Source of the DNA: Candidatus Latescibacterota bacterium
Lineage (GTDB): Bacteria; Latescibacterota; MWCZ01
Reading direction: 5' to 3'
DNA: 32,099 nt
Assembly: GCA_029547385.1 (NCBI GenBank)
Contig: JAKPPK010000449.1
Location: 1-32,099 of the forward strand
In this document: positions 1-20,047 of the stretch, piece by piece
Numbering within the stretch: position 1 is the stretch's first letter
Layout: the number at the start of each line of letters is the position of its first letter
Made by a program: the position numbers and the translations under genes
Notes under the pieces: model-generated
The model's input: only the letters and a program-made list of their open reading frames with translations
What the model was told of the DNA's origin: nothing
The model's database searches: none

Positions 1-2538
1 AATGGGGATACTGCCGTGCGCGGGAAACCGCTCCAACTCCCCGACATCGTGCCGCATGAACGCCGCGGGGAACTCCTCCGTCGTGCCGCCTTTGCGGAAC
101 GTCAGGATGACGAATTTGAAGCTTCTGTGGACGCCTTCGAACACCTCTTTTCTGTTCTCGATGCAGAAGAGGCCCCCGATCTCGGTCTCCTCGAACAGCA
201 TTTCGCGCAGGCGTTTCGTGCCGAGATCGGTGTAGATGCCGCTCGGAATGACGATGCCGCACATGCCGCCGGGACGAAGCAGATTCACGCACTGCTCGGT
301 AAAGAGCTTGTACAGGTTGATGTCGGTCCCGGCCTTTTTGCCGCCGACAACAGATATCTGCCGCGCATACTGTGGCGAGCTACGATAATAAAGGCTGACG
401 TGGGGGAATCTACTCTCGTATTCCAGCCACGCTGCTCGTACCTCCGGGTTTCGCATGAGCCGCGCCTGCTCTTCTTCAAACTCCTTGATCGTCATCTTGT
501 TTTTGGTAACGATTTCGGAATGCTCGGCAAAGAATTCCTTGGCCTGAGGTTTGAAGGTTTCCCACGGGGGGTTCGTGATGATGGCGTCGAACCCGCCCTG
601 TCCGTTCATCACCTGATCGAATTCGTATCCCCAGTGAAACGGGTGGAGCGCCTCGATGTCGGCGATGGTGAGGTCGCGCCTGACCGGTTTCCCTTCGGCG
701 TTCCGGGTTTCATCCCAAGTCGCCTGCTCGAACTTGATCTTGAGCTTTCTCGCGAACTCGTTCAGGAGAATCTCGTTGAGGGTCCGTTGGGCGGACTTGC
801 GGAGGTCCGAAATCTCGTCGCGCAACCCGCGTAGATCAGCCACGTAGGTGGTCGCGTGTCGGTAGCTTTCCACCGCGCGGTTTTTCTCTGCGAGCACTTC
901 GTCGTACCGCTTGAAGAACAGATCCCCCTGCTGGTGCCGTTCGTTGAATTCGCGGTCGTCCACGCGCATGAGGCCGATAAGCGAGTTGCCCGGTACGACG
1001 TTGAAATCGATGTTGGGGAGCGGCTCGAGCTGTTCGACCGTCGAGACCGAGGCAACGAGCGCGAGGAAAAGGCGAAGCCGGGCGATTTCCACCGCCTCAT
1101 CCATGATGTCCACGCCGAACAGGTTGTCCGTGATGATGCGGCGCTTGATGTGGTAGTTGAGGCTGCGCCCCTCTTTCCGCATCGCCGCCAGTTGGTCTCG
1201 CAGGCCTTTGTCGTTGAGGTACTCGATCTTGCCGGTGACTGCGCTGTAGACGTTGATGAGCGTCTTCAGCGCCGCGACGAGGAACGCACCGGATCCGCAC
1301 GCGGGGTCGAGAATACGGATACTCGGCAACACGTCGTTCAGGAGCGTCCGGCAGAGCTCCGCGTCGAGACTGAGCAGCAGATCGCCAAGTGAATCGAAAT
1401 GCCTCGGAGCGACGAACCCCGGCACGCCGGGGGAGCTGACTTTGTCGAGGATGAGCCGGTGGATCGTGTGCTCGCACAGATACTCCGTGATTTCCGTGCG
1501 CGTGTAGTAGGCTCCGAAGGCTTTCTGGTTGATGTATTTCTCGAAGATGTACCCGAGGACGCCGGGGTTGATCTCGTCGTCTTTCCCGCCGGGCGTGTCG
1601 TCAAGGCTCCATGAGTACTTCTCAAAGAGCGCGAGGATGCTCTCGAACGCGGCATCAGGGATCGCGATGTTCGGGTACTTGATCTCGATCGGGTGTGGGA
1701 GAAAAAGGCCGCCGTTAAGGTAGGGGATTTGGCCGAGAAGCGCTTCCGTTTCAGGCCCATGGTTCGGTTGTGCGAAACCCTTGAAGAAAAGCTCTTGCAG
1801 GAACTCTCGGTAAAAGCGGTTGGGGCCGCGTTTCTGGCTTTCGTTCAACTTCTTGCGGAGGTAATCCTGGGCGCCGTTATCGAGGAAGCCTTTCTTCTGA
1901 AGGAAGTAGACGAACATAAGGCGGTTGAGGAGGACGCTGGCGTACCATGCCTGCTCATGCTCGTTGTCGATGCCGAGGATGTGCTTCGTGAACACGAGAC
2001 GCTTTTCGTCGAACGCGATGAAGAACTTCTTTGTGACCGGTTCTATATCGAGGGCTTTCTGCAGGCGCGAGACGACGGTCGTGATGGGCAGGTTGCCCTT
2101 CTCGTCCAGTTCGCCGATGTCCACATGCATCGAACTGATTTTGCTGATGAACAGGTCGCCGGGTTGGCCTTTGAAGTAGTACGCATGGCGTGGACGGCGC
2201 ACGCCGCCTTCCCGCTTCACCCAGTACCAGAGGCTGCGCGTCCTTGTCCTGTCGAGAAACACGATAAGGTTCTCGTAACTCAGTTCGGATACGCGCGCGT
2301 GGATCGCGCGTCGCGTGTTTTCGGGTGGTATATCGCCATCGTCCATGGTGACGGCGAATACGTGGACGCCGCCCAATTCGCTCACCATCTCAAGGGTATA
2401 CCGGAGTCCTTTTTCGTCGATGTGCCGCGGTCTCTCGTGTGCGGGCGGATAATTCCAGCCGAGGACCTCGATGAACAGGGTCTGGAAGTCAAAATTGCTC
2501 AGCAGGTCTCGCGTACGAGGGATGTCGAACGTTGCCAT
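1..2538 (-). CDS. N6-adenine DNA methyltransferase, Eco57I/type IIG-ISP-like (partial, runs off left edge)
   Basis: Minus frame read codon by codon from ATG at 2538 to position 1 with no stop (846 codons): MATFDIPRTRDLLSNFDFQTLFIEVLGWNYPP... Motif I ILDPACGSGAFLVAAL (about 1280-1320) and motif IV DAIITNPPWE (about 555-590). N-terminal segment ...WYASVLLNRLMFVYFLQKKGFLDNG... is typical of large Eco57I-type methylases. Absent from the supplied ORF track because it has no stop in the window. Confidence 0.93.
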   Translation of the reverse strand, partial: MATFDIPRTRDLLSNFDFQTLFIEVLGWNYPPAHERPRHIDEKGLRYTLEMVSELGGVHVFAVTMDDGDIPPENTRRAIHARVSELSYENLIVFLDRTRTRSLWYWVKREGGVRRPRHAYYFKGQPGDLFISKISSMHVDIGELDEKGNLPITTVVSRLQKALDIEPVTKKFFIAFDEKRLVFTKHILGIDNEHEQAWYASVLLNRLMFVYFLQKKGFLDNGAQDYLRKKLNESQKRGPNRFYREFLQELFFKGFAQPNHGPETEALLGQIPYLNGGLFLPHPIEIKYPNIAIPDAAFESILALFEKYSWSLDDTPGGKDDEINPGVLGYIFEKYINQKAFGAYYTRTEITEYLCEHTIHRLILDKVSSPGVPGFVAPRHFDSLGDLLLSLDAELCRTLLNDVLPSIRILDPACGSGAFLVAALKTLINVYSAVTGKIEYLNDKGLRDQLAAMRKEGRSLNYHIKRRIITDNLFGVDIMDEAVEIARLRLFLALVASVSTVEQLEPLPNIDFNVVPGNSLIGLMRVDDREFNERHQQGDLFFKRYDEVLAEKNRAVESYRHATTYVADLRGLRDEISDLRKSAQRTLNEILLNEFARKLKIKFEQATWDETRNAEGKPVRRDLTIADIEALHPFHWGYEFDQVMNGQGGFDAIITNPPWETFKPQAKEFFAEHSEIVTKNKMTIKEFEEEQARLMRNPEVRAAWLEYESRFPHVSLYYRSSPQYARQISVVGGKKAGTDINLYKLFTEQCVNLLRPGGMCGIVIPSGIYTDLGTKRLREMLFEETEIGGLFCIENRKEVFEGVHRSFKFVILTFRKGGTTEEFPAAFMRHDVGELERFPAHGSIPI

Positions 2539-2544
2539 GGCGGC

Positions 2545-5500
2545 CTACTCTCCCACGGAGGCAACAAGCCCCAGCGAACAGACGATCTGCGGTTCGGAGG
2601 CTACGTGATCAGGTTCGGTGATGCAAAGGCGATTCTGGGTGAAGAGCGTGCAGACGAATTCCCCGAGGCTTTCGTCCCCAATGCCCGATTTCAGACGCGT
2701 GAGCAGGATATCGCGCGCTTCTTCCCGCAAAGGGGATGTATAGACGGCGTGCACCGCCTTGCGCAAGTCGGGCGAAATGAACAGCGTGCCCTCGTGGCGC
2801 TCGACGTATGTTTTCAGACGCTCGTACACGCGACGCCGCGGGCTGGAGGGCGGCCCGAGTTGTCCTCCCGGCGTTCTGATCTCCTCCTGTGCGATCGTTT
2901 TCACCGCTGTTTCGACCAGCACGTGGTGATCGGGGCGGCGTGGCAAGGCGGGAGTGCGGGGCTCGCACGCGGCCATTTTCAGGATTGCGGACGGGGAATC
3001 CGTAAGCACGTTGCCTGCGGCGTCCAGACAGGTGAGCACATCGTTTCCTTCCGGCGTTCGGACATATGCCAGCACGCCGTCGTTCGCGCCTTCAGGGGCT
3101 GCCTTGCTGGAATAGACCACATCAGGGAGTCGCTTGATGGCCTCCTCCAGTTCCGGATCGTCTTTCGTTGCTTGCTGCCAAATCCGGTACGCATGGGATG
3201 TGAGATCGGTGTCGTCGTCCTCGGCTTCGCCGTCAAGCAGGCCGGCTTTCTCGTGGTAGATATCGGCAACCCATTTCCCGTGCCGTTCTTCCTCGAAGAA
3301 CTGCTCGTCGGTGCCGACGACTTCGGCGTTCTGGTGGAGCCTCTGCACAAGACGCGTGCGCAGGCGAATGATGTTCTCAACACCATCCGCGGGCAGGAAT
3401 GTGTAACAGCGAACAGTTGGTGCCCGTTGCCCGATCCTGTCCACACGGCCTGCCCGCTGCACGAGGCGGATAATTGCCCAGGGGAGGTCGTAATTCACGA
3501 CGATACTGCAATCTTGGAGGTTCTGCCCTTCGCTCAGCACATCCGTGGCGATGAGAACGCGGGTTTCGTCGTCCGGCCGGATGCGGTCTCGTTTCCCGTT
3601 GCTCTCGGGGCTGAACCGATGCGCCGCTTCCGTGGGGTTTGACGATTGACCGGTGACGCCCTCGACCTGCCGCACGCCTGCCTTTCGCAGCTCCTCAACG
3701 AGATAGCGCACGGTATCGGCGAACTGGGAGAAGACGAGCACCTTTTCCCGCGGGTGTGTGGTCTTGAGCAGCGTTACAAGAGCCTGCAATTTGGAGTCCT
3801 GAGCCGGGTCCCACTCGGGGAGGGTTCTGTGCAGGCGGACGAACTCCTCGGTGTCGTGCCGCAGCGTTTTGATCAGTGCATCCGATTCGAACAGATCAGC
3901 TCTGATCCATTTGAATTGCCTCTTCATATGCGTCCGGTAGATATCGTACACTCGCTTCGCACGCGCGGCGTAGTCTCCGCTGAGAGCCTCCTCCGGCGGT
4001 ACCGTTCCCTCAGTGGACTCTTCGTCTTCATCGGGGGAAACGACTGTTGCAAACAGGGAGTCTATGTCCTCGTCGCTGAACGCGGTATCGAGCAGCGCGG
4101 AATCCTGGGTGCCGATGGGCAGCGGCAATCCCCTTTCGAGTGCGTACAAGAAGACGCAGTTCCGCACGATGTGGCGTTCCACGGACTGAAGGAAGTCGTG
4201 CCCGCTGCTTTCGAGGCGCTTGAACAGGTTGGTGCGGCAGTACCCCAGCAGGCGCCGGGCCGCTCGACCCAGGTTGTCTATGATCTCTTTTTCGGTTTCC
4301 GTGGTGTCTGCGGGCAAGTCCTTCCGCACGTATTCCCCGAGGCCGTAGCGCGGCAGGTTCAGGCCACCAATCATGTTGACGACGGATTCCCGGTACAAAC
4401 GCGCGAACTGGTCCGCCTCGTTGACGGGGTACGTGACGGTTTTCGGTTCCCTGATCGGGAAGTACGCCCGTTCCCCGTTTTCCATGGTGAGGTAGTATCT
4501 TCCGGCGCTCTCGTCCTTCGTGGCGTAGCTCTCCATGATGAACCTGCGAGTGCGGCGCACCATGAACATGCGCAGGAGGTCACGCCAGTCCTCCGGCTCG
4601 CTGCTCGCTTCAAACGCGCGCAGCGTTCTCGGCGAGCACTGGTACTTGCGGACGAAGTCCTTCTCCCCGCCGGGGAGCGACGCGATCAGCCTGTTCGGGC
4701 GGATGCCGAGGTCGCGCTCTTCCGGAACGAAGAGACCGAGTTGTGCGCCGAGATCCCGGTAGCTCTTGTTATACGGGGTGGCCGAGAGCAGGATGACTTT
4801 GCAGTCGTTTGTGGCGATGTACTCCCGCAGTGCGCGGTACCTCTTGCCCTCGCGGTTGCGGAAGTTCTGGCTCTCGTCCAGTATGAGGAGCCGGTACCGC
4901 TGGAGTCGTGGCAGATCTTTTAGCATTCTGCCGGTGGACAGGACTCTCCCTCGAAGCTCCCAACGTTCCCGGTAATCTTCCCACATACGAACGAGGTTTG
5001 CCGGGCACAAGATGAGCGGGTTAAGGTCGTCAAACGCCTTCAAAACTGCCGTTGCGGTGAGTGTCTTTCCCAGTCCTACCACATCGCCGATCAACACGCC
5101 GCCGCGTTCCGGCCTTCTCAGGTGGTGCGCAGCGATTTTCACGGCTTCCTGCTGAAACGGGAAAAGCGTTTTTGCGAGGTCCGGAGGAATGACTGATTCA
5201 ATCGCTCCCGCGCGCGCTTCCTGCGAAAGGTGGTATACCATCTTGATGTAGATGTGGTACGGCGGCAGGGGCGTTTCGCTGGCCCAGCTCTCCCCTATCA
5301 CGCGGACAAGCTCATCGGAGATGTCAAGACAGAAGCGGTCGTTCCATCGGTCTTCAAACCATCCTTGGAGCTTGGCGCACGCGTCGTGATCGAGGACATC
5401 AACGTTGAGTTCGCCCTGGTTTACCAGCCCGGCCAGAGTGAGGTTGCTGCTTCCCAGGAACGCGGTGATGGGATTGTTCACGTCCTCACGGTGCAGCATG

Positions 5501-5916
5501 TAGAGCTTGGCGTGGAGAGGATGGCGCAGGAACACCTTGACGATGAGTTTTCCTGCCCGAATCTGCCTCACCATCCGGCGCAACGCGGTCTCTTCCTCGT
5601 CGTTCGGGATGCCACGTGCCAGTTGTTGACGCAGTTCTGTTGCGACCTCGGTTTTCAGGCGGACTGCGGTTTTGTTGTCGATGGTTTGCTCGCGGAAAAC
5701 CCGAAACAGTACCTCCGACGGTCGAGGTTGCATTCCGAGCAAGAGTCGGCAACAGGCCCCGTCGCCACCCTGCCACTGCTCAACGTATCCGGCAAGATGC
5801 TTCCAACCGCGAAGGTTGAAGTACCCGACGCAGAAGTCGCCCCGTTGAGCAACACGCATCGTGTCCTGCAGGGCGGGCAGAAGATCGTTTTCGATGTTGT
5901 CAAAAATGCGCGGCAT
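2545..5916 (-). CDS. PLD-like domain + SNF2/DEAD-family helicase fusion protein
   Basis: N-terminal PLD-like motif HAKLYML...FLGSSNLTLAGL. Helicase motifs GDVVGLGKT (Walker A), LLILDESQNFRN, LLSATPYNKS, VLVFSQFADT, TRVLIATDVLSEGQNLQ and QRAGRVDRIGQ. ATG at 5916 is preceded by a strong SD (GGGGAGGTGGT-ATG), so the ORF-track start at 6162 looks over-extended by 82 codons. Confidence 0.9.
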   Translation of the reverse strand: MPRIFDNIENDLLPALQDTMRVAQRGDFCVGYFNLRGWKHLAGYVEQWQGGDGACCRLLLGMQPRPSEVLFRVFREQTIDNKTAVRLKTEVATELRQQLARGIPNDEEETALRRMVRQIRAGKLIVKVFLRHPLHAKLYMLHREDVNNPITAFLGSSNLTLAGLVNQGELNVDVLDHDACAKLQGWFEDRWNDRFCLDISDELVRVIGESWASETPLPPYHIYIKMVYHLSQEARAGAIESVIPPDLAKTLFPFQQEAVKIAAHHLRRPERGGVLIGDVVGLGKTLTATAVLKAFDDLNPLILCPANLVRMWEDYRERWELRGRVLSTGRMLKDLPRLQRYRLLILDESQNFRNREGKRYRALREYIATNDCKVILLSATPYNKSYRDLGAQLGLFVPEERDLGIRPNRLIASLPGGEKDFVRKYQCSPRTLRAFEASSEPEDWRDLLRMFMVRRTRRFIMESYATKDESAGRYYLTMENGERAYFPIREPKTVTYPVNEADQFARLYRESVVNMIGGLNLPRYGLGEYVRKDLPADTTETEKEIIDNLGRAARRLLGYCRTNLFKRLESSGHDFLQSVERHIVRNCVFLYALERGLPLPIGTQDSALLDTAFSDEDIDSLFATVVSPDEDEESTEGTVPPEEALSGDYAARAKRVYDIYRTHMKRQFKWIRADLFESDALIKTLRHDTEEFVRLHRTLPEWDPAQDSKLQALVTLLKTTHPREKVLVFSQFADTVRYLVEELRKAGVRQVEGVTGQSSNPTEAAHRFSPESNGKRDRIRPDDETRVLIATDVLSEGQNLQDCSIVVNYDLPWAIIRLVQRAGRVDRIGQRAPTVRCYTFLPADGVENIIRLRTRLVQRLHQNAEVVGTDEQFFEEERHGKWVADIYHEKAGLLDGEAEDDDTDLTSHAYRIWQQATKDDPELEEAIKRLPDVVYSSKAAPEGANDGVLAYVRTPEGNDVLTCLDAAGNVLTDSPSAILKMAACEPRTPALPRRPDHHVLVETAVKTIAQEEIRTPGGQLGPPSSPRRRVYERLKTYVERHEGTLFISPDLRKAVHAVYTSPLREEARDILLTRLKSGIGDESLGEFVCTLFTQNRLCITEPDHVASEPQIVCSLGLVASVGE

Positions 5917-6804
5917 ACCACCTCCCCAGCCGTATGTACCACCACATTCTGTTCTAAGGTCACCAAATTCTTGCAGATGGGCAACCCGGTCTTTCCAGCA
6001 GAACCTCAGGGGGTCCGGGAACCCCTGAAGGCGAGCTTTCAATCGTTCCGTTCCTGCTTTCCTTAGGAGGGAAAACCAGCCGCGGGAACGGGAACGCTGT
6101 TCCATTTCGGGAAATCCACGCCTGGCATGCGCGGGCGGGGGGTCGGTGGAGACAGCTCTCACACAGAACAGTCGCGAACAGGCGCGACACGGGAACTCCT
6201 CCTGCGACCAACCTGTCCCGCGTTTCGCAGCAACGGTGCCTCCCCATTCGGGTTCGCAAGAGACAACGGAAAGGCAACCGTGTCTAACTTTCTGTGAAAA
6301 ATATACTTACGCAGCCAAAGCGTTGCCGATGCGAAACGCGGTGTTGTTTTCCCGTGTACGCCTATTTATGGCCGTGGAAGGGTGCCGGAGACGAAACTGG
6401 GCACGGATGATAAGAACGGTTATGTCAACTTAGTGTGGGGATCTGAGCGGGGAGGTATCGGCGGAGCGCATGCTCGGATTACCCGTATGTCAACTGCCTC
6501 GACGAACTGAAGCTCGGTCGAGGGCGCCGGGAACCGAGCGTATCCCGATGCCCCCCAATGGGCCCGCCTTTGCGCACAGGTGGGGTATGATTTGATGGCT
6601 GTTCAGCCTGTCTGCCGCTCGGATTGCGTGATGGAGCACTGGTTGAGCACGGAAGGCTCGCCGAGTGAACTCCTGTTGCTCCGAGGTCGGCGTCCCGCGG
6701 GGTCCACCAACTGAAGGGACTTGACAAACCGAGTCGTTTGCCAAATGACCAACTGCATAAGTGTGCCGCCGTACCCACGGCGTTCCGATTAGGCATCGTT
6801 GACC

Positions 6805-8145
6805 TCAGTCCTTGAGGGACTCTACGAGCTGAATATCCGGACGGCACCGAAGTGAGCACTCCCCGGTCCGGCCGTTCCGATTCTTCTCCACGGTTAGGTT
6901 CAGGAAGCCCGGCTCGCTATTCCCTCTGCGATCGTCTCGGTCAAGCATTATCACAATATCGGCGTCCTGCTCTATCGCGCCTGAGCCCTTGAGGTTGTGC
7001 AGTTTGGGCTTTCGGCCGCTTTGTTCGGTTTCACGGTTCAATTGCGAGAGCACTACCACGGGCACGTTCAACTCGCGGGCAAGTGCCTTCAGGTTCTTGG
7101 ATATTCTTTCCAGTTCCTGGACACGATTGTCTGTTCGTTCCGTTGGTTCAATGAGATGCAGGTAGTCGATGAACACCGCCCGCACTTTGGTATCGGGCGA
7201 ATGAACCAGGCGCCTCGCCTTTGCGCGGATCTGCGTACACGTCATGTTTTTTCCGGGATCTCCGATGAATCCAGGCAATGCGGAAAGGATTTCGCCCGCT
7301 TTTCGAAGCGCGATGGCGTCTTCATCATCCCCACGTGCAAGAACTTCACCGGTGTTGAGTCGGTGCTCTTCCACTTGTGAAACGCTACTCAGCAAACGAG
7401 TGGTCACGGGGTCGCGTGCCATTTCCAAAGAAAAGAACGCCGCTGGGATGCCCTGTGCGCTCATGTTTCGGAACAGGTTCAAGGCAAATGCTGTTTTTCC
7501 TACGGAAGGACGCGCAGCGATAACAATGAACTCGCCATCACGAAAGCCGCCAGTGATCATGTCCAGTTCATCATATCCCGACGAAGCACCCGCGTATTTG
7601 CGACAGCAACGTGCTCGCTTTTCCATGGCTTCAAACGCCTGCGACACGCAATCCTCGAGACTGAACACTTCGAATTCCTCCGAAGGCACGTTGTCAATGA
7701 TCGTCCGTTCTACCATCGCCACAATCTCTCGCACGTCGGCTTCTGGGTCGTCTGCTGCCGTCTGGATTCTCCATGCGAGAGTCTTCAGTTGGCGCCGCAG
7801 ATGGTAATCCAACACGCGGTTGGCGTCATGTTTGACGTGCACGGAGGTGCCAACCGAAGCACCGACGTCGCCCAACCATACCGTGGCGTCGTGGCCCTCC
7901 ATCTTGAGACCAATTCGCGCGACATCCTGAGCAAGTTGGTCGAGGGTCACGGGTTTCCCTGAGTCCGCGGTGCTCACCATGTAGCGGTACAAAGTGCGCG
8001 CACGAATGGAGTGAAACGCTGCACCGTCATCGAGAACAGCCGCCGCGGTTTCGACGGCTTGACAGTCCATCATCATCGCGCCCAGTACCCGGTGTTCTGT
8101 TTCCACGCTGTGAGGCGTGTGCGGTGTTGTCATCGCGTTTTCCAT
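6805..8145 (-). CDS. DnaB-family replicative DNA helicase (phage/element type)
   Basis: SVETEHRVLGAMMMD N-terminal region; GYDELDMITGGFRDGEFIVIAARPSVGKTAFALNLFRNMS Walker A; FIDYLHLI; VVVLSQLNRETE; IEQDADIVIMLDRDD. All are DnaB hallmarks. Confidence 0.93.
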   Translation of the reverse strand: MENAMTTPHTPHSVETEHRVLGAMMMDCQAVETAAAVLDDGAAFHSIRARTLYRYMVSTADSGKPVTLDQLAQDVARIGLKMEGHDATVWLGDVGASVGTSVHVKHDANRVLDYHLRRQLKTLAWRIQTAADDPEADVREIVAMVERTIIDNVPSEEFEVFSLEDCVSQAFEAMEKRARCCRKYAGASSGYDELDMITGGFRDGEFIVIAARPSVGKTAFALNLFRNMSAQGIPAAFFSLEMARDPVTTRLLSSVSQVEEHRLNTGEVLARGDDEDAIALRKAGEILSALPGFIGDPGKNMTCTQIRAKARRLVHSPDTKVRAVFIDYLHLIEPTERTDNRVQELERISKNLKALARELNVPVVVLSQLNRETEQSGRKPKLHNLKGSGAIEQDADIVIMLDRDDRRGNSEPGFLNLTVEKNRNGRTGECSLRCRPDIQLVESLKD

Positions 8146-9068
8146 GCTAGGACGTCCTTCCTTTTTTCTGCGATTCGTTCATCGGCCTTTCGAGCGAGCA
8201 TTTCCCTCTCTTCCTTCGCTCGGTCTGCCCGCGGTTCCATTGTCAGCCCGATCCACGGGTGCCTCTTAAGCCAGTTCTGTGGTTTCGGGAAATAATCGAG
8301 GTCGTCGCATGTGTATACCGATTCACGCAGTGCGGCGAGCACGTTGTCCAAGTTGAATCGGGGGTCTGAACGTTCTTTTTGGAACTGCTCCCAAGCGGGT
8401 ACGAAGTTCCCCTTTTTGTAGCGACAATCGGGGTATTCGTCCCAGAACGCCACGAACATCGAATCCTCTCCCGGGTCGGCCATTTTTGGCGGCGCTTTCG
8501 GTTTGGAGAGGGCGCAAACAACGCGCTTGTCTGGTGCCTCAGCTTTCGAAGAACCGAATGGGATTGGTTCAATACATCTAGGTTCATCATTATTAGGGGG
8601 TACAGGGGGACGGGTAACATCGGCATTTTGGTCGCGTAACAATGGACCTTTGGTCGTTCTGAACCTGAATCGGTCCGTGATTGTATAGACCGTTGGCAGC
8701 GCACCGCGGCCTTTGCCCGCTCCTCCATGACGTCGTTGCCTTCCCAATACCCCGAGCCTGACGAGGTGTTCCAGCGCGTTCGCGACAGTGCGGTGGCCCA
8801 GCTTGAGTCTTTTTGCGATCTCCGCCGTTTTGGGCCAAGCACGCCCTTCAGCGTCTGCGTAGGATACAATACGGAAGAAGACCGCTTCGAGGACGGCGTT
8901 CGACGGATCAAAACGACCGCGCACGTATGCCCCCATCGTGCCGTAAAACGCAATGTGGGCTTCCCAGAACGGTCGCGTTTTGGACTCCCGTTCCGACATC
9001 GGTTCGAGGGGCACCCTGTTTCCCAGGTTGGCACCCGCAGTCGACTTGTCCGCATCGCTGACACCCAT
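8130..9068 (-). CDS. HTH-domain protein, phage replication-initiator/helicase-loader type
   Basis: HTH-like segment WPKTAEIAKRLKLGHRTVANALEHLVRLGVL; overlaps the downstream DnaB ORF by 16 bp, a typical initiator/loader-helicase arrangement; SD-like GAGGT before ATG at 9068. Confidence 0.7.
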   Translation of the reverse strand: MGVSDADKSTAGANLGNRVPLEPMSERESKTRPFWEAHIAFYGTMGAYVRGRFDPSNAVLEAVFFRIVSYADAEGRAWPKTAEIAKRLKLGHRTVANALEHLVRLGVLGRQRRHGGAGKGRGALPTVYTITDRFRFRTTKGPLLRDQNADVTRPPVPPNNDEPRCIEPIPFGSSKAEAPDKRVVCALSKPKAPPKMADPGEDSMFVAFWDEYPDCRYKKGNFVPAWEQFQKERSDPRFNLDNVLAALRESVYTCDDLDYFPKPQNWLKRHPWIGLTMEPRADRAKEEREMLARKADERIAEKRKDVLAWKTR

Positions 9069-10630: not shown

Positions 10631-11776
10631 CTAACGCGGCGTGCGACCTTGGTCTGTTGCTTCTGGTCTCCCCGGTTCCCTCCCATCACAACTGCTCCCA
10701 TCGAAAATCGCCACGTTCATCCGTTCGACCACAGCACTCGTGTGTGTTTCGGACAAGTGCGCATACCGTTTCACCATCTGGAGTGTCTTGTGGCCCAACA
10801 CTGCGGCGATATCGAGAGGCGATCCCCTGTTCATTGCCAAGTACGATGCAGCGGAATGGCGGAGATCGTGGAAGCGGAAGTTCTTCAGTTCTGCTCGCTT
10901 CAATGCTGACCGCCACGCCGATTCGATATCGATCGATTTTGAACTGCCTTCAGGAGCCGTTGGCGCGGGGAAAACAAGCGCGGAGTCCGAGAGTCGGTCT
11001 TTCCACAACTCCGCCAGCGCCCCGCGCGCGTGACTTTTCAGTGGGACGATCCGAACCTCCGCGTTCTTGGTGTCGGCGGATCGGAGAGTGATGGCGTCCC
11101 GCAAGAAATCTATCCGATCCCACGTCAGGTTCATGATCTCGCTGCGTCGCATACCAGTGCTCAAAGCGAGGAGGACGATCGGGTACAAGAACGAGGAACT
11201 GCTTTGTTTGCACACGCTCAGAAGTCGGCTCCGTTCCTGGTCACTGAGGTACCGCACTACTCCTTGGGGTTCCTTGTTCCGCGATACCTTGCGCATGGGG
11301 TTATCGTCTAACCAGTTGAGGTCCCTCACCGCGTACGTCAAGCAATGGCTCATGGCAGCCATGTAACGATTGACCGTACTCGGGGAACGGGGTTTTCCGG
11401 AAGGAGTCGGCTCTCGGCTGAGTCCTTCCCGGGCATCGGCCAGGAGTGCGGGCCTGAGTTCCTGTAGAAGGTAGTGACCGAGGCGCTCTCGCCACCACTC
11501 CAATTGACTTGCCTGATTCCGAGATGTAGACAACCGCTTCCTGGGTAGTGCATTCGCGATGTACTTGCCGATCAACTCCGCGACCGTGTGGCGGTTCGAC
11601 TCCGGTGTCGGGAAGTCCCTTCCAGCACGCATGTCGGCTTCCGTCCTCTGTGCCCATCGTTCGGCGTCTGTCTTGCGGCCGAATGTTTTGGTCAGAGACG
11701 GGAATCCTCTGAGGCGAACCTGGACGCGGTAATGCGTCTTCTCTGCTTGATCAGTGCGGGGCTGGATCGTTGCCAC
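10631..11776 (-). CDS. tyrosine site-specific recombinase / integrase
   Basis: Catalytic motifs LLALSTGMRRSEIMNLTW, FRFHDLRHSAASYLA and AVLGHKTLQMVKRYAHLSE; located next to a tRNA 3' end. Confidence 0.95.
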   Translation of the reverse strand: MATIQPRTDQAEKTHYRVQVRLRGFPSLTKTFGRKTDAERWAQRTEADMRAGRDFPTPESNRHTVAELIGKYIANALPRKRLSTSRNQASQLEWWRERLGHYLLQELRPALLADAREGLSREPTPSGKPRSPSTVNRYMAAMSHCLTYAVRDLNWLDDNPMRKVSRNKEPQGVVRYLSDQERSRLLSVCKQSSSSFLYPIVLLALSTGMRRSEIMNLTWDRIDFLRDAITLRSADTKNAEVRIVPLKSHARGALAELWKDRLSDSALVFPAPTAPEGSSKSIDIESAWRSALKRAELKNFRFHDLRHSAASYLAMNRGSPLDIAAVLGHKTLQMVKRYAHLSETHTSAVVERMNVAIFDGSSCDGREPGRPEATDQGRTPR

Positions 11777-12142
11777 GAGGTTGTGTCCCCCTGCCAGTCT
11801 TGGATGAAGGTGCGCTTCGTTGGAACCTCCGGTCTTGGAAAACCGCTCCGGCTACGCCAGAGCAACCCACCATTTGGCGATGGGCTACGGGCATGAAGCT
11901 ACGAAAGTCGGTGTGAACAGACAATGAGTGTATTACCCGGACCGAGGTCGGCGTTGGTCCCCCTTTAACGATCTACCACGCGGTCGTGTCCGTTTGTCCG
12001 TGTTTGGCGCATCGAAGGGCCAAGTTGCAAGCGAGAGGAACGGGAAGACTTGGTGTTGCGGCTTACCGCTGAGGACGCGGTTGTGTTGAGAGGTGTTGCT
12101 TCTGAGTGTGCCACCAGTGTGCCATGGTGGCAGTGTGAACAA

Positions 12143-12180: not shown

Positions 12181-12188
12181 ATAACAAG

Positions 12189-12262
12189 TAGCGGCGCAGG
12201 GACTTGAACCCCGGACACGCGGATTATGATTCCGCTGCTCTAACCAGCTGAGCTACGCCGCC
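12189..12262 (-). tRNA. tRNA with anticodon CAT (Met elongator or Ile2)
   Basis: GGCGGCGTAGCTCAGCTGGTTAGAGCAGCGGAATCATAATCCGCGTGTCCGGGGTTCAAGTCCCTGCGCCGCTA folds as a cloverleaf (acceptor GGCGGCG/CGCCGCT, anticodon stem GCGGA/TCCGC, loop ATCATAA). CCA not encoded. Confidence 0.96.
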
Positions 12263-17424: not shown

Positions 17425-18671
17425 TCCGTGTCCTCTTTCACTTCTTCCTCGCCTTCCCTCAAGCGGCGCTGGCGGGAAAGGTTGAGAAGAAGTCCGGTCC
17501 CGGCAAGGTTGAGCACGAGGGAGGAACCTCCGTAACTGATAAATGGCAGCGGTAACCCGGTGGTCGGCATCAGTGCCGTCATTACGCCCATATTCAGCAA
17601 CGCGTACATCAGAATGTTCGCCGTGAGGCCCGTTGCAAGCAGGAATCGAAAAAGTGTCGGTTGTTGGTAAGCGATTCGAAGTCCGCGCCAGCCGAAAAGG
17701 CAAAAGAGCAGAACAACAGCAACCGTGCCTATGAACCCAAATTCCTCTCCGATTATCGGGAGGATCGAATCCGTATACGGTTCCGGCAGGAAGAAGTATT
17801 TCTGGATGCTTCTCCCGAGGCCCCTGCCGAGCAAACCGCCAGAACCCATGGCGACGAAGCCCTGCTGGATCTGATATCCCGTTTCGAGCCGCTTCAGTCT
17901 GTACGGCTCGATAATTATCAAGACGTACACGGCAAGCGCGACTGCACCCATTAAAGGCAGAATGTGTCGCATACGTATGTTGGCGACGAACATCATCACT
18001 CCGAACACGGAGGCCATTGCCACGGCTGTTCCGACATCTGGTTCGAGCACAATTATGCCCAGCGGTATGCAGATCAGTCCGATAAGCGGTAACACGCCGT
18101 CCTTGAGGCTTTCCAGCCTTTCCTGGTGTTTCGTCAAACGGTCAGCAAGGTAGAGAATCAGCGCGAATTTGACGATTTCCGACGGTTGCAGGGTCAATCC
18201 CAGAAGGTTTACCCAGCTTCGCGCGCCCTTGTATGCAACACTGAACAGGGCCGGCAACAAAAGGAGCGAAAAGGACGCAAATGCAAAATACGGGAAATAC
18301 TTCCGCACGCGATCCACCGGGACAAACAGGGCAGCGATAAGGCACAAAAGTCCTAGTGCCGCGCGCGTGACCTGCCGGACCATAAAGTGCGCCGGCCCAC
18401 CGAACTTTTCCGCGGCGATGACGCTGCTTGAGCTGTACACCATCGTTGCGCCGAAACCGACGATCATGATTGTGGCGGCCAGAAGGATGACGTCGAGCGG
18501 CTGAGAAGAACTGGCCAGGGCTTGTTCCGCCCCTTCGGCTTTGCCCGATCCAGCCGCTTCTCGGACGACCTGTTTGCGAGAGGCACCCGTGTCACCGAGG
18601 CGTTCGTGCACCCAGTTCAGGGAATTCGCGTCGATGAGTGGTGCTTCCACAGACGTTCTCTCCACGGTCAA
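17421..18671 (-). CDS. ftsW: lipid II polymerase / SEDS protein FtsW
   Basis: Polytopic SEDS protein: GARSWVNLLGLTLQPSEIVKFALILYLA, TGLPLPFISYGGSSL. TTG start overlapping the MurF stop. Confidence 0.96.
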   Translation of the reverse strand: MTVERTSVEAPLIDANSLNWVHERLGDTGASRKQVVREAAGSGKAEGAEQALASSSQPLDVILLAATIMIVGFGATMVYSSSSVIAAEKFGGPAHFMVRQVTRAALGLLCLIAALFVPVDRVRKYFPYFAFASFSLLLLPALFSVAYKGARSWVNLLGLTLQPSEIVKFALILYLADRLTKHQERLESLKDGVLPLIGLICIPLGIIVLEPDVGTAVAMASVFGVMMFVANIRMRHILPLMGAVALAVYVLIIIEPYRLKRLETGYQIQQGFVAMGSGGLLGRGLGRSIQKYFFLPEPYTDSILPIIGEEFGFIGTVAVVLLFCLFGWRGLRIAYQQPTLFRFLLATGLTANILMYALLNMGVMTALMPTTGLPLPFISYGGSSLVLNLAGTGLLLNLSRQRRLREGEEEVKEDTE

Positions 18672-20047
18672 GAGAGTGCTTTCTGGAGATGGTCTATCAC
18701 CAACTCCATGTGCTCGCTGCGCGAACCTTTTACGAGAACGACATCACCTTCTCTGAGGTTATTCCTGAGCCACTCGGCGCACGCTTGCTGAGTCTCGAAT
18801 CCGGGTGTTTCTGAAGCGCCCGCGGATCGCGCTCCCTGTGCAATGATGTTGCCCAGTTCGCCGACAGTGATGAGGTTCACACCGAGTCCGGCGACGTACG
18901 AGCCGACTTCGCGGTGAAGAGCAAGGCTCTGTTCACCCAGTTCACGCATACCGCCCAGGACAGCTATTCTTCGGCCGCTCTTTCCCGGCTCAAGCGTCAT
19001 AAGGGTCTGCAAAGCGGCGCGGACAGAGGTGGGATTGGCATTGTACGCGTCATCCAACACGAGAACGCCACGAATCCAGAGCGATCTCATTCTCCTGTCC
19101 GCCGGTTCGGTGCGAGATATGCCGACGGCTGCCTCACCTGCCGGAATGCCGAGGGCATCGGCGGCGGCGATCGCAGCGAGCGCGTTGTACACCATATGCC
19201 GGCCGGGAATTCGCAACTGGACTTCCGAGCCGTTGACGACAAAGCTCCAGCACCCATCCTGGCCCTGCTGCAAGGCGGACGCTTTGAACGCGCAATCGCT
19301 TTCGATTCCAAACCACCGAATCGTCCCGTCCCATCTTCTCGCCCGAGCTACGAGACCCACGTCGTCGCGATTCAGTACCAGCATGCGGTCACCCGTAAGC
19401 GTACCGACCAGTTCCCATTTCGCGTCCACGAGAGCATCAAATGAGGGGAAGCTCTCCAGGTGGGCCTGTCCGGTGTTCGTGATGACGCCGACTGTCGCTT
19501 CTGCGATCGTTCCGAGGAGATGGATCTCGCCCGCGTGATTCATGCCCATTTCGACCACTGCGGCGCGGTGTTCCTCCGTTATCTCAAGAAGCGTCAGCGG
19601 AACGCCAAGGTGATTGTTAAGCGTGCCTTCAGTTCGCAGTACAGGACCGAGTCCCGCAAGCGCTGATGCGATGAACTCCTTGGTGGTCGTTTTGCCGTTC
19701 GAGCCAGTCACTGCGACCACCGGTATGGCGAATTTCCTTCTGTGGGCACGTGCCAGTTTCTGAAGTGCGGCAACCGGGTCATCGACGGTGATGAGCGTAT
19801 AGATATCCCATTCGCGCAGATGGGCTTCCACCTTTCTCCGATCTACCAGTGCAGCTCTCGCCCCTTTCGCGAACGCATCCCCGACGAAACGATGCCCGTC
19901 GTTCGTCTGCGTCGTAACGGCGACGAAGAGATCTCCCTTGTTCACTCGGCGGCTGTCAATCGAGACGCCGGTTACGGGTCCCTGACTGCCATTGAGCACC
20001 GTGCCGCCAGTGATCTCGGCTATCTGTTCCGGGCTGTACGCGTCCAC
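18668..20047 (-). CDS. murF: UDP-N-acetylmuramoyl-tripeptide--D-Ala-D-Ala ligase MurF
   Basis: GVSIDSRRVNKGDLFVA, VVAVTGSNGKTTTKEFIASAL, VLDDAYNANPTSVRAAL, MRELGEQSLALHREVG. Confidence 0.96.
   Translation of the reverse strand: MDAYSPEQIAEITGGTVLNGSQGPVTGVSIDSRRVNKGDLFVAVTTQTNDGHRFVGDAFAKGARAALVDRRKVEAHLREWDIYTLITVDDPVAALQKLARAHRRKFAIPVVAVTGSNGKTTTKEFIASALAGLGPVLRTEGTLNNHLGVPLTLLEITEEHRAAVVEMGMNHAGEIHLLGTIAEATVGVITNTGQAHLESFPSFDALVDAKWELVGTLTGDRMLVLNRDDVGLVARARRWDGTIRWFGIESDCAFKASALQQGQDGCWSFVVNGSEVQLRIPGRHMVYNALAAIAAADALGIPAGEAAVGISRTEPADRRMRSLWIRGVLVLDDAYNANPTSVRAALQTLMTLEPGKSGRRIAVLGGMRELGEQSLALHREVGSYVAGLGVNLITVGELGNIIAQGARSAGASETPGFETQQACAEWLRNNLREGDVVLVKGSRSEHMELVIDHLQKALS

Follow-up and report, generated by a model that had tools for sequence, protein, structure and literature searches.

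A conserved HKD-SNF2 helicase and adenine methyltransferase gene pair, a predicted two-gene restriction-modification system on an integrative element of a Latescibacterota bacterium

Here we describe a gene pair at the left end of contig JAKPPK010000449.1 of Candidatus Latescibacterota bacterium (assembly GCA_029547385.1), in which a SNF2 helicase carrying a single HKD motif is followed by a large N6-adenine methyltransferase. The window that was analysed is the complete contig of 32,099 bases, C568, from a draft genome of 3.5 Mb. We consider that the pair is probably a two-gene, ATP-dependent restriction-modification (R-M) system, as predicted from its sequence, that an integrative element carries as defence cargo. 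The two genes and their motifs lie in the window as follows:

2545-5916, minus strand: HKD(PLD)-SNF2 nuclease-translocase, 1123 aa, single HKD, start ATG at 5916
5506-5514, minus strand: HAK of the HKD motif
5443-5454, minus strand: GSSN of the HKD motif
5062-5076, minus strand: Walker A, GLGKT
4870-4878, minus strand: DES
4774-4785, minus strand: SATP
3427-3459, minus strand: motif VI (QRAGRVDRIGQ)
1-2538, minus strand: PglX/type-IIG-like N6-adenine methyltransferase, first 846 of ~1150 aa, cut by the contig end
1282-1308, minus strand: methylase motif I, DPACGSGAF
562-573, minus strand: methylase motif IV, NPPW

The long open reading frame (ORF) of the first gene opens at 6162. Because the start that is conserved among its relatives (MPRIFDNI) corresponds to ATG 5916 here, 2545-5916 is the correct gene extent, exactly as in the initial annotation, which had proposed a PLD-SNF2 fusion. 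Matches to PLDc_2, NgoFVII-PLD, SNF2-rel and Helicase_C delimit one N-terminal PLD half-domain (HAK...GSSN) and an SNF2/Helicase_C ATPase, and the HAK, GSSN, GLGKT, DES, SATP and QRAGRVDRIGQ motifs are all intact. Residue conservation was scored across 56 aligned relatives, whose helicases are 50-58% identical to the window protein throughout. In the HKD active site (HxK...GSxN), H135 and K137 are invariant and S156 and N158 are conserved in more than 90%, while the key residues of the SNF2 ATPase (Walker A, DExx, SAT, QRxGRxDRxGQ) are invariant or above 90%. The helicase falls far below every NCBIfam cut-off and PADLOC models match it weakly; its plasmid relatives are labelled 'helicase-related protein' in public records, and phage records match it only weakly (27-35%).

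The methylase ORF follows downstream after a gap of 6 bp (2539-2544), matches the Eco57I, MmeI-MTase and N6_Mtase profiles and, with its DPACGSGAF and NPPW motifs, bears out the large Eco57I-like methylase that had been annotated there. By comparison with two references, the methylases of the family were assigned to two deep types, A (NPPW, including that of the window) and B (mostly NPPY). An Eco57I/MmeI-type adenine methyltransferase with a target-recognition region, as found here, is what characterizes type IIG R-M enzymes, and PADLOC labels the window methylase REase_MTase_IIG (373 bits). Because the corresponding model PDLC03628 matches a type B relative over its full length (1020 bits), annotation tools would present it as a type IIG enzyme standing alone. 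If that label were right, the methylase itself would restrict and the neighbouring helicase would be incidental, which we regard as very unlikely: the helicase is always adjacent, and within methylase residues 1-195, compared in 36 proteins, only P69 and E87 are invariant, with no conserved D...ExK or PD-(D/E)XK. The methylase is therefore not a complete type IIG enzyme, which leaves the HKD as the sole candidate nuclease of the pair. The predicted secondary structure of residues 1-195 is compatible with a degenerate restriction endonuclease fold. The best structural matches of the methylase model are BREX PglX/BrxX, then DrdV, BsaXI, BpuSI and MmeI, at low Foldseek TM-scores (0.2-0.3 over the query), such that these fold matches support the family and not the detail; a PDB sequence search with the methylase returned no match.

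The methylase is ~300 aa longer than is visible in the window. Leftward extension, suggested in the initial annotation, was impossible within a contig that is itself the whole window, and it led instead to a probable continuation on contig C190 (locus L110). With the methylase of a full-length relative as query, two matches were found in the genome, namely the window (query residues 56-877) and C190 3780-4013 on the minus strand (query residues 1121-1198, 67% identity), and C190 ends exactly there. Because the two methylase parts are truncated in a complementary manner, C190 is likely the continuation, carrying the following feature:

C190 (L110) 3762-4013, minus strand: most likely the C-terminal 83 codons of the methylase

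One scan of genome contigs yielded 179 relatives of the HKD-SNF2 protein, the best 80 of which were retained. We limited the pairing count to relatives with at least 1.5 kb of downstream sequence, and in all of these (67 of 67) the methylase lies directly after the helicase; two exceptions that appeared at lower cut-offs have less than 1.4 kb of sequence remaining in each case. Pair-bearing relatives span 24 named bacterial phyla, the pairing is far beyond chance, and the pair is a conserved unit. It is present on plasmids of Anabaena, Pelobacter, Synechocystis and Rhodococcus, with the arrangement kept in those divergent pairs that were looked at, and also on viral contigs carrying a full-length relative. 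Because the pair of Rhodococcus sp. 008 (39% identity, 4-bp gene overlap) comes with no other gene in common, two genes appear sufficient.

Around the 80 relatives, there is no recurring partner from DISARM, BREX, ARMADA, DUF499 or type I systems. DEAD or Helicase_C domains, our test for YprA-like proteins, were found in few of the large neighbours of relatives (5-6 of 54) and in none on C190, which also lacks DISARM, BREX and type I genes. The self-contained nuclease-translocase and methylase cassette of the initial annotation is thus upheld, and none of the three findings that it had named as fatal to its proposal (DISARM or type I genes at the left, a pair that is not co-conserved, missing PLD residues) was made.

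Methylase types A and B are scattered on the helicase tree, and well-supported branches force at least six type changes; for example, the helicases of L022 (methylase B) and L040 (methylase A) are sisters with full support. Because of these changes, we conclude that one effector family is served by exchangeable methylases. In type B, mean identity in the target-recognition region (residues 801-1040) is 0.21-0.33 compared with ~0.4-0.9 in most other parts, and helicase conservation is more even than that of the type B methylase.

The proposal of an R-M system is founded on an intact HKD together with an SNF2/RapA-type ATPase and, in the same operon, an intact N6-adenine methyltransferase with a C-terminal target-recognition region. 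In our best reading, the system is mechanistically like types ISP, III and CglI and is assembled from DISARM/BREX-like parts. Motors of the SNF2 type and related SF2 motors move along duplex DNA, and PLD nucleases need a pair of HKD motifs for each active site. The methyltransferase would mark host DNA at an asymmetric site, whereas at unmethylated sites it would recruit or license the SNF2 motor, supplying recognition, and the motor would then translocate along the DNA. Because each chain has one HKD, cleavage should need two chains, and it would take place when two chains or HKD domains meet, e.g. when motors that set out from unmethylated sites in inverse orientation converge, as happens in types III and ISP. 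In those types, which methylate one strand, the host is protected during replication by the need for two inversely oriented unmodified sites. The same two-chain, two-site need would explain host survival here while replication leaves half of the sites, methylated on one strand only, without modification for a short time. A wider generalization, possible and put forward tentatively, is that of a pan-bacterial, so far unrecognized R-M class in which a one-HKD SNF2 effector acquires nuclease activity only through the meeting of two chains on DNA, and in which interchangeable one-strand adenine methyltransferases also hold the target specificity.

Defence could also proceed by a BREX- or ARMADA-like route without cleavage, in which the methylase marks self, the SNF2 ATPase blocks replication of the invader or silences it, and the HKD is structural or regulatory. 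Such a route would suit a methylase model nearest to BrxX/PglX and a helicase whose structure model is nearest to RapA, like BrxHII and ArmA (PMC12458937). We judge it unlikely, given that, in the 56 proteins, H and K of the HKD never vary and its N is above 90%, as would be expected in an active nuclease, and that BrxC, PglZ, YprA and DUF499 partners do not recur.

The relative on plasmid pSYSX of Synechocystis 6803 connects the pair to a known methylation motif. There, the pair consists of SGL_RS01585 and SGL_RS01600, and a reading of the whole plasmid showed the amino-methyltransferase motif IV in two ORFs only, SGL_RS01600 and a type I HsdM at 88-90 kb. Both M.Ssp6803IV and M.Ssp6803V are encoded on pSYSX (PMC6604393); M.Ssp6803V is slr6095 (type I), and M.Ssp6803IV has the motif GA(m6A)GGC, which is methylated at 1446 of 1451 sites (PMC7296061). 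Because pSYSX has only two amino-methyltransferase genes and M.Ssp6803V is the type I slr6095, the partner of the HKD-SNF2 protein must be M.Ssp6803IV, by elimination from gene content and literature. Because GA(m6A)GGC is asymmetric and its complement, GCCTTC, contains no adenine, only one strand is marked. The primary M.Ssp6803IV paper (Hagemann 2018, DNA Res., dsy006) reportedly gives the gene as slr6050 and as essential, which would suit an active nuclease that depends on the methylase but is not counted towards our proposal.

Synechocystis methylases have largely been treated as orphan or regulatory (PMC6560206), in keeping with a regulatory methylase beside a DNA-repair or remodelling helicase that has no role in defence. 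To this we give little credence, since a nuclease is fused to the helicase, the target region is variable, the distribution is patchy with carriage on mobile elements and plasmids, and the defence-type neighbours around the loci include AbiEi, PIWI, Schlafen, SMODS and DUF1016.

Several points weigh against an R-M system as we describe it. No restriction or phage assay of any family member was found in the literature, and Synechocystis is said to express no active R-M system (PMC6560206). The methylase of the pSYSX relative is of type B and that of the window of type A, in which the target region is less variable than in type B, in a small sample. The window methylase is incomplete, with ~245 codons missing before its likely continuation on C190, a join for which complementary truncation is the one line of evidence. 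Finally, a DprA-like gene (PF02481, PsyrA-like) lies downstream in 26 of 37 type B loci, compared with 1 of 8 type A loci (for example, L010 10843-11484 and L014 18519-19238); it is a possible third component and may matter in the type B branch.

The pair is cargo of a tyrosine-integrase element in a tRNA-Met gene, in agreement with the integrase-bearing element of the initial annotation. Its remaining features in the window are:

10631-11776, minus strand: tyrosine integrase (PF00589, E 4e-29)
12188-12262, minus strand: tRNA-Met (CAT), integration target (ARAGORN)
12187-12236: att site, a 50-bp direct repeat equal to the 3' part of tRNA-Met; identical copy at C493:563-612
6805-8145, minus strand: DnaB-like replicative helicase of the element (PF03796, E 2e-73)
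8130-9068, minus strand: HTH_36 protein, probably replication initiation or regulation (PF13730, E 3e-8)

A genome of the same genus (G001) matches the window at 91% rightwards from the tRNA, and this match ends at window position 12187. The native sequence to the left of the single tRNA of G001 was located on contig C493 of the window's genome, where an exact copy of the 50 bp at window 12187-12236 marks the second element end. Because of the G001 break at 12187 and the att copy on C493, the element ends, the att duplication and the empty site have all been seen. The element interior has gaps between C568, C190 and C493, and the fragment at C493 1-562 holds small ORFs only. A 32-bp inverted motif, 87.5% identical and rich in GTGCCA/TGGCAC, is present near both element ends (window 12096-12127 and L113 429-460), possibly as integrase arm sites.

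On C190, the methylase end is followed by a 248-aa protein, an AbiEi/DUF6088-like protein and a 574-aa PIWI/Argonaute-like protein:

L110 2972-3718, minus strand: 248-aa protein directly after the methylase, no family match
L110 422-2146, minus strand: PIWI/Argonaute-like protein, 574 aa (PprPIWI and pAgo models, E 1e-12 to 1e-9)

The PIWI/Argonaute-like protein, which adjoins the AbiEi-like gene and is probably on the same element, shows, on visual inspection, a plausible DEDD catalytic set. At its end, C190 carries near-duplicate repeats (GGGATGGGAACGCTTGGAACGCTG, L110 1-280), which are the likely cause of the assembly break. Because neither the element's DnaB, Rep or other backbone genes nor the PIWI, AbiEi and 248-aa genes of C190 are linked to the pair in the 80 relatives, we regard all of them as neighbours only. 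On the Anabaena plasmid pANACY.05 (L196 7503-9301), an ATP-binding protein (4-bp overlap) and a DUF4276 gene lie directly after the type A methylase, and AAA_21 ATPases likewise follow the methylase in L021 and L065.

If our proposal is true, current annotation divides a widespread restriction system into a 'type IIG enzyme' and an unrelated 'helicase-related protein'. In the pair, the translocase-methylase core that is common to DISARM, BREX-3 and ARMADA is down to two genes, so that the role of the core alone becomes directly testable, and pSYSX provides a natural case that is open to genetics and whose methylation motif is known. With an exchangeable methylase, one effector could be given new target specificities.

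Among known systems, DISARM was the one invoked by the initial annotation, which saw in the pair a condensed form of it; this part of its interpretation was not sustained. A degenerate DISARM class 1, composed of DrmD, DrmMI and a fused DrmC, would fit weak matches to the PADLOC DrmD and DrmMI models (118 and 95 bits) but is extremely improbable. Neither drmA nor drmB is present on C190 or recurs around the 80 relatives, with ~245 methylase codons and the C190-C493 gap unread, the PLD is fused instead of being a separate protein, and the methylase is structurally nearest to BREX PglX/BrxX. Assignment of the helicase to the DrmD family was rejected at 129 bits for NF038317 (cut-off 610) and 80 bits for NF038318 (cut-off 950). 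The BREX partners PglZ and BrxC did not recur in neighbour scans, and the PglX model scored 54 bits against a cut-off of 500. DUF499 is not among the recurring neighbours, and the only PF04465 match of the genome lies on C344, not on C568, C190 or C493. C344 (G000) carries SNF2 at 1660-2169 and DUF499 at 17507-19060, possibly a DUF499/Hma system.

SauUSI, like the window protein, joins a PLD nuclease and a helicase ATPase in one chain; unlike the window pair, it lacks a methylase and is a type IV enzyme that cleaves modified DNA. In CglI/NgoAVII, specificity is held by the PLD protein (B3-like domain). SauUSI is an ATP-dependent endonuclease (PMC7913695), and CglI/NgoAVII, with PLD nuclease, ATPase and methylase, likewise cleave in an NTP-dependent manner at an asymmetric site, although their PLD protein is separate from the ATPase, which belongs to the DEAD family of helicases (PMC4267653, PMC5737866). 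HKD-SNF2 fusions are already known in DUF499-centred systems (PMC12839542, PMC7641849) and a PLD-SF2 fusion in PbeA (PMC10853773); with these Hma/DUF499, PbeA and SauUSI-like precedents, the novelty does not lie in the HKD-SNF2 fusion as such. BREX-related type 2 (DUF499-centred, Hma-like; PMC12839542) likewise has an HKD N-terminal to an SNF2 helicase and an N6-methyltransferase, but it requires the DUF499 ATPase (and DUF3780), which the window locus lacks in the case of DUF499, and its methylase is of another family, COG1743 (PMC7641849), compared with PglX/IIG-like here. ARMADA and DISARM class 1 likewise place a RapA/BrxHII-like helicase beside a PglX-like methylase (PMC12458937), but they need the YprA/DrmA helicase (DISARM also DrmB), without which the window pair stands. 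No description of a stand-alone HKD-SNF2 protein with a PglX/IIG-like methylase was found in the literature searched, PADLOC or NCBIfam, which is no proof of novelty, REBASE and subscription papers being outside the search. Type ISP (LlaGI/LlaBIII) and type III enzymes combine one-strand adenine methylation with translocation- or diffusion-coupled two-site cleavage. This is the predicted mechanism of the pair, from which these enzymes differ by their PD-(D/E)XK nucleases and other helicase families and, for ISP, by being a single polypeptide.

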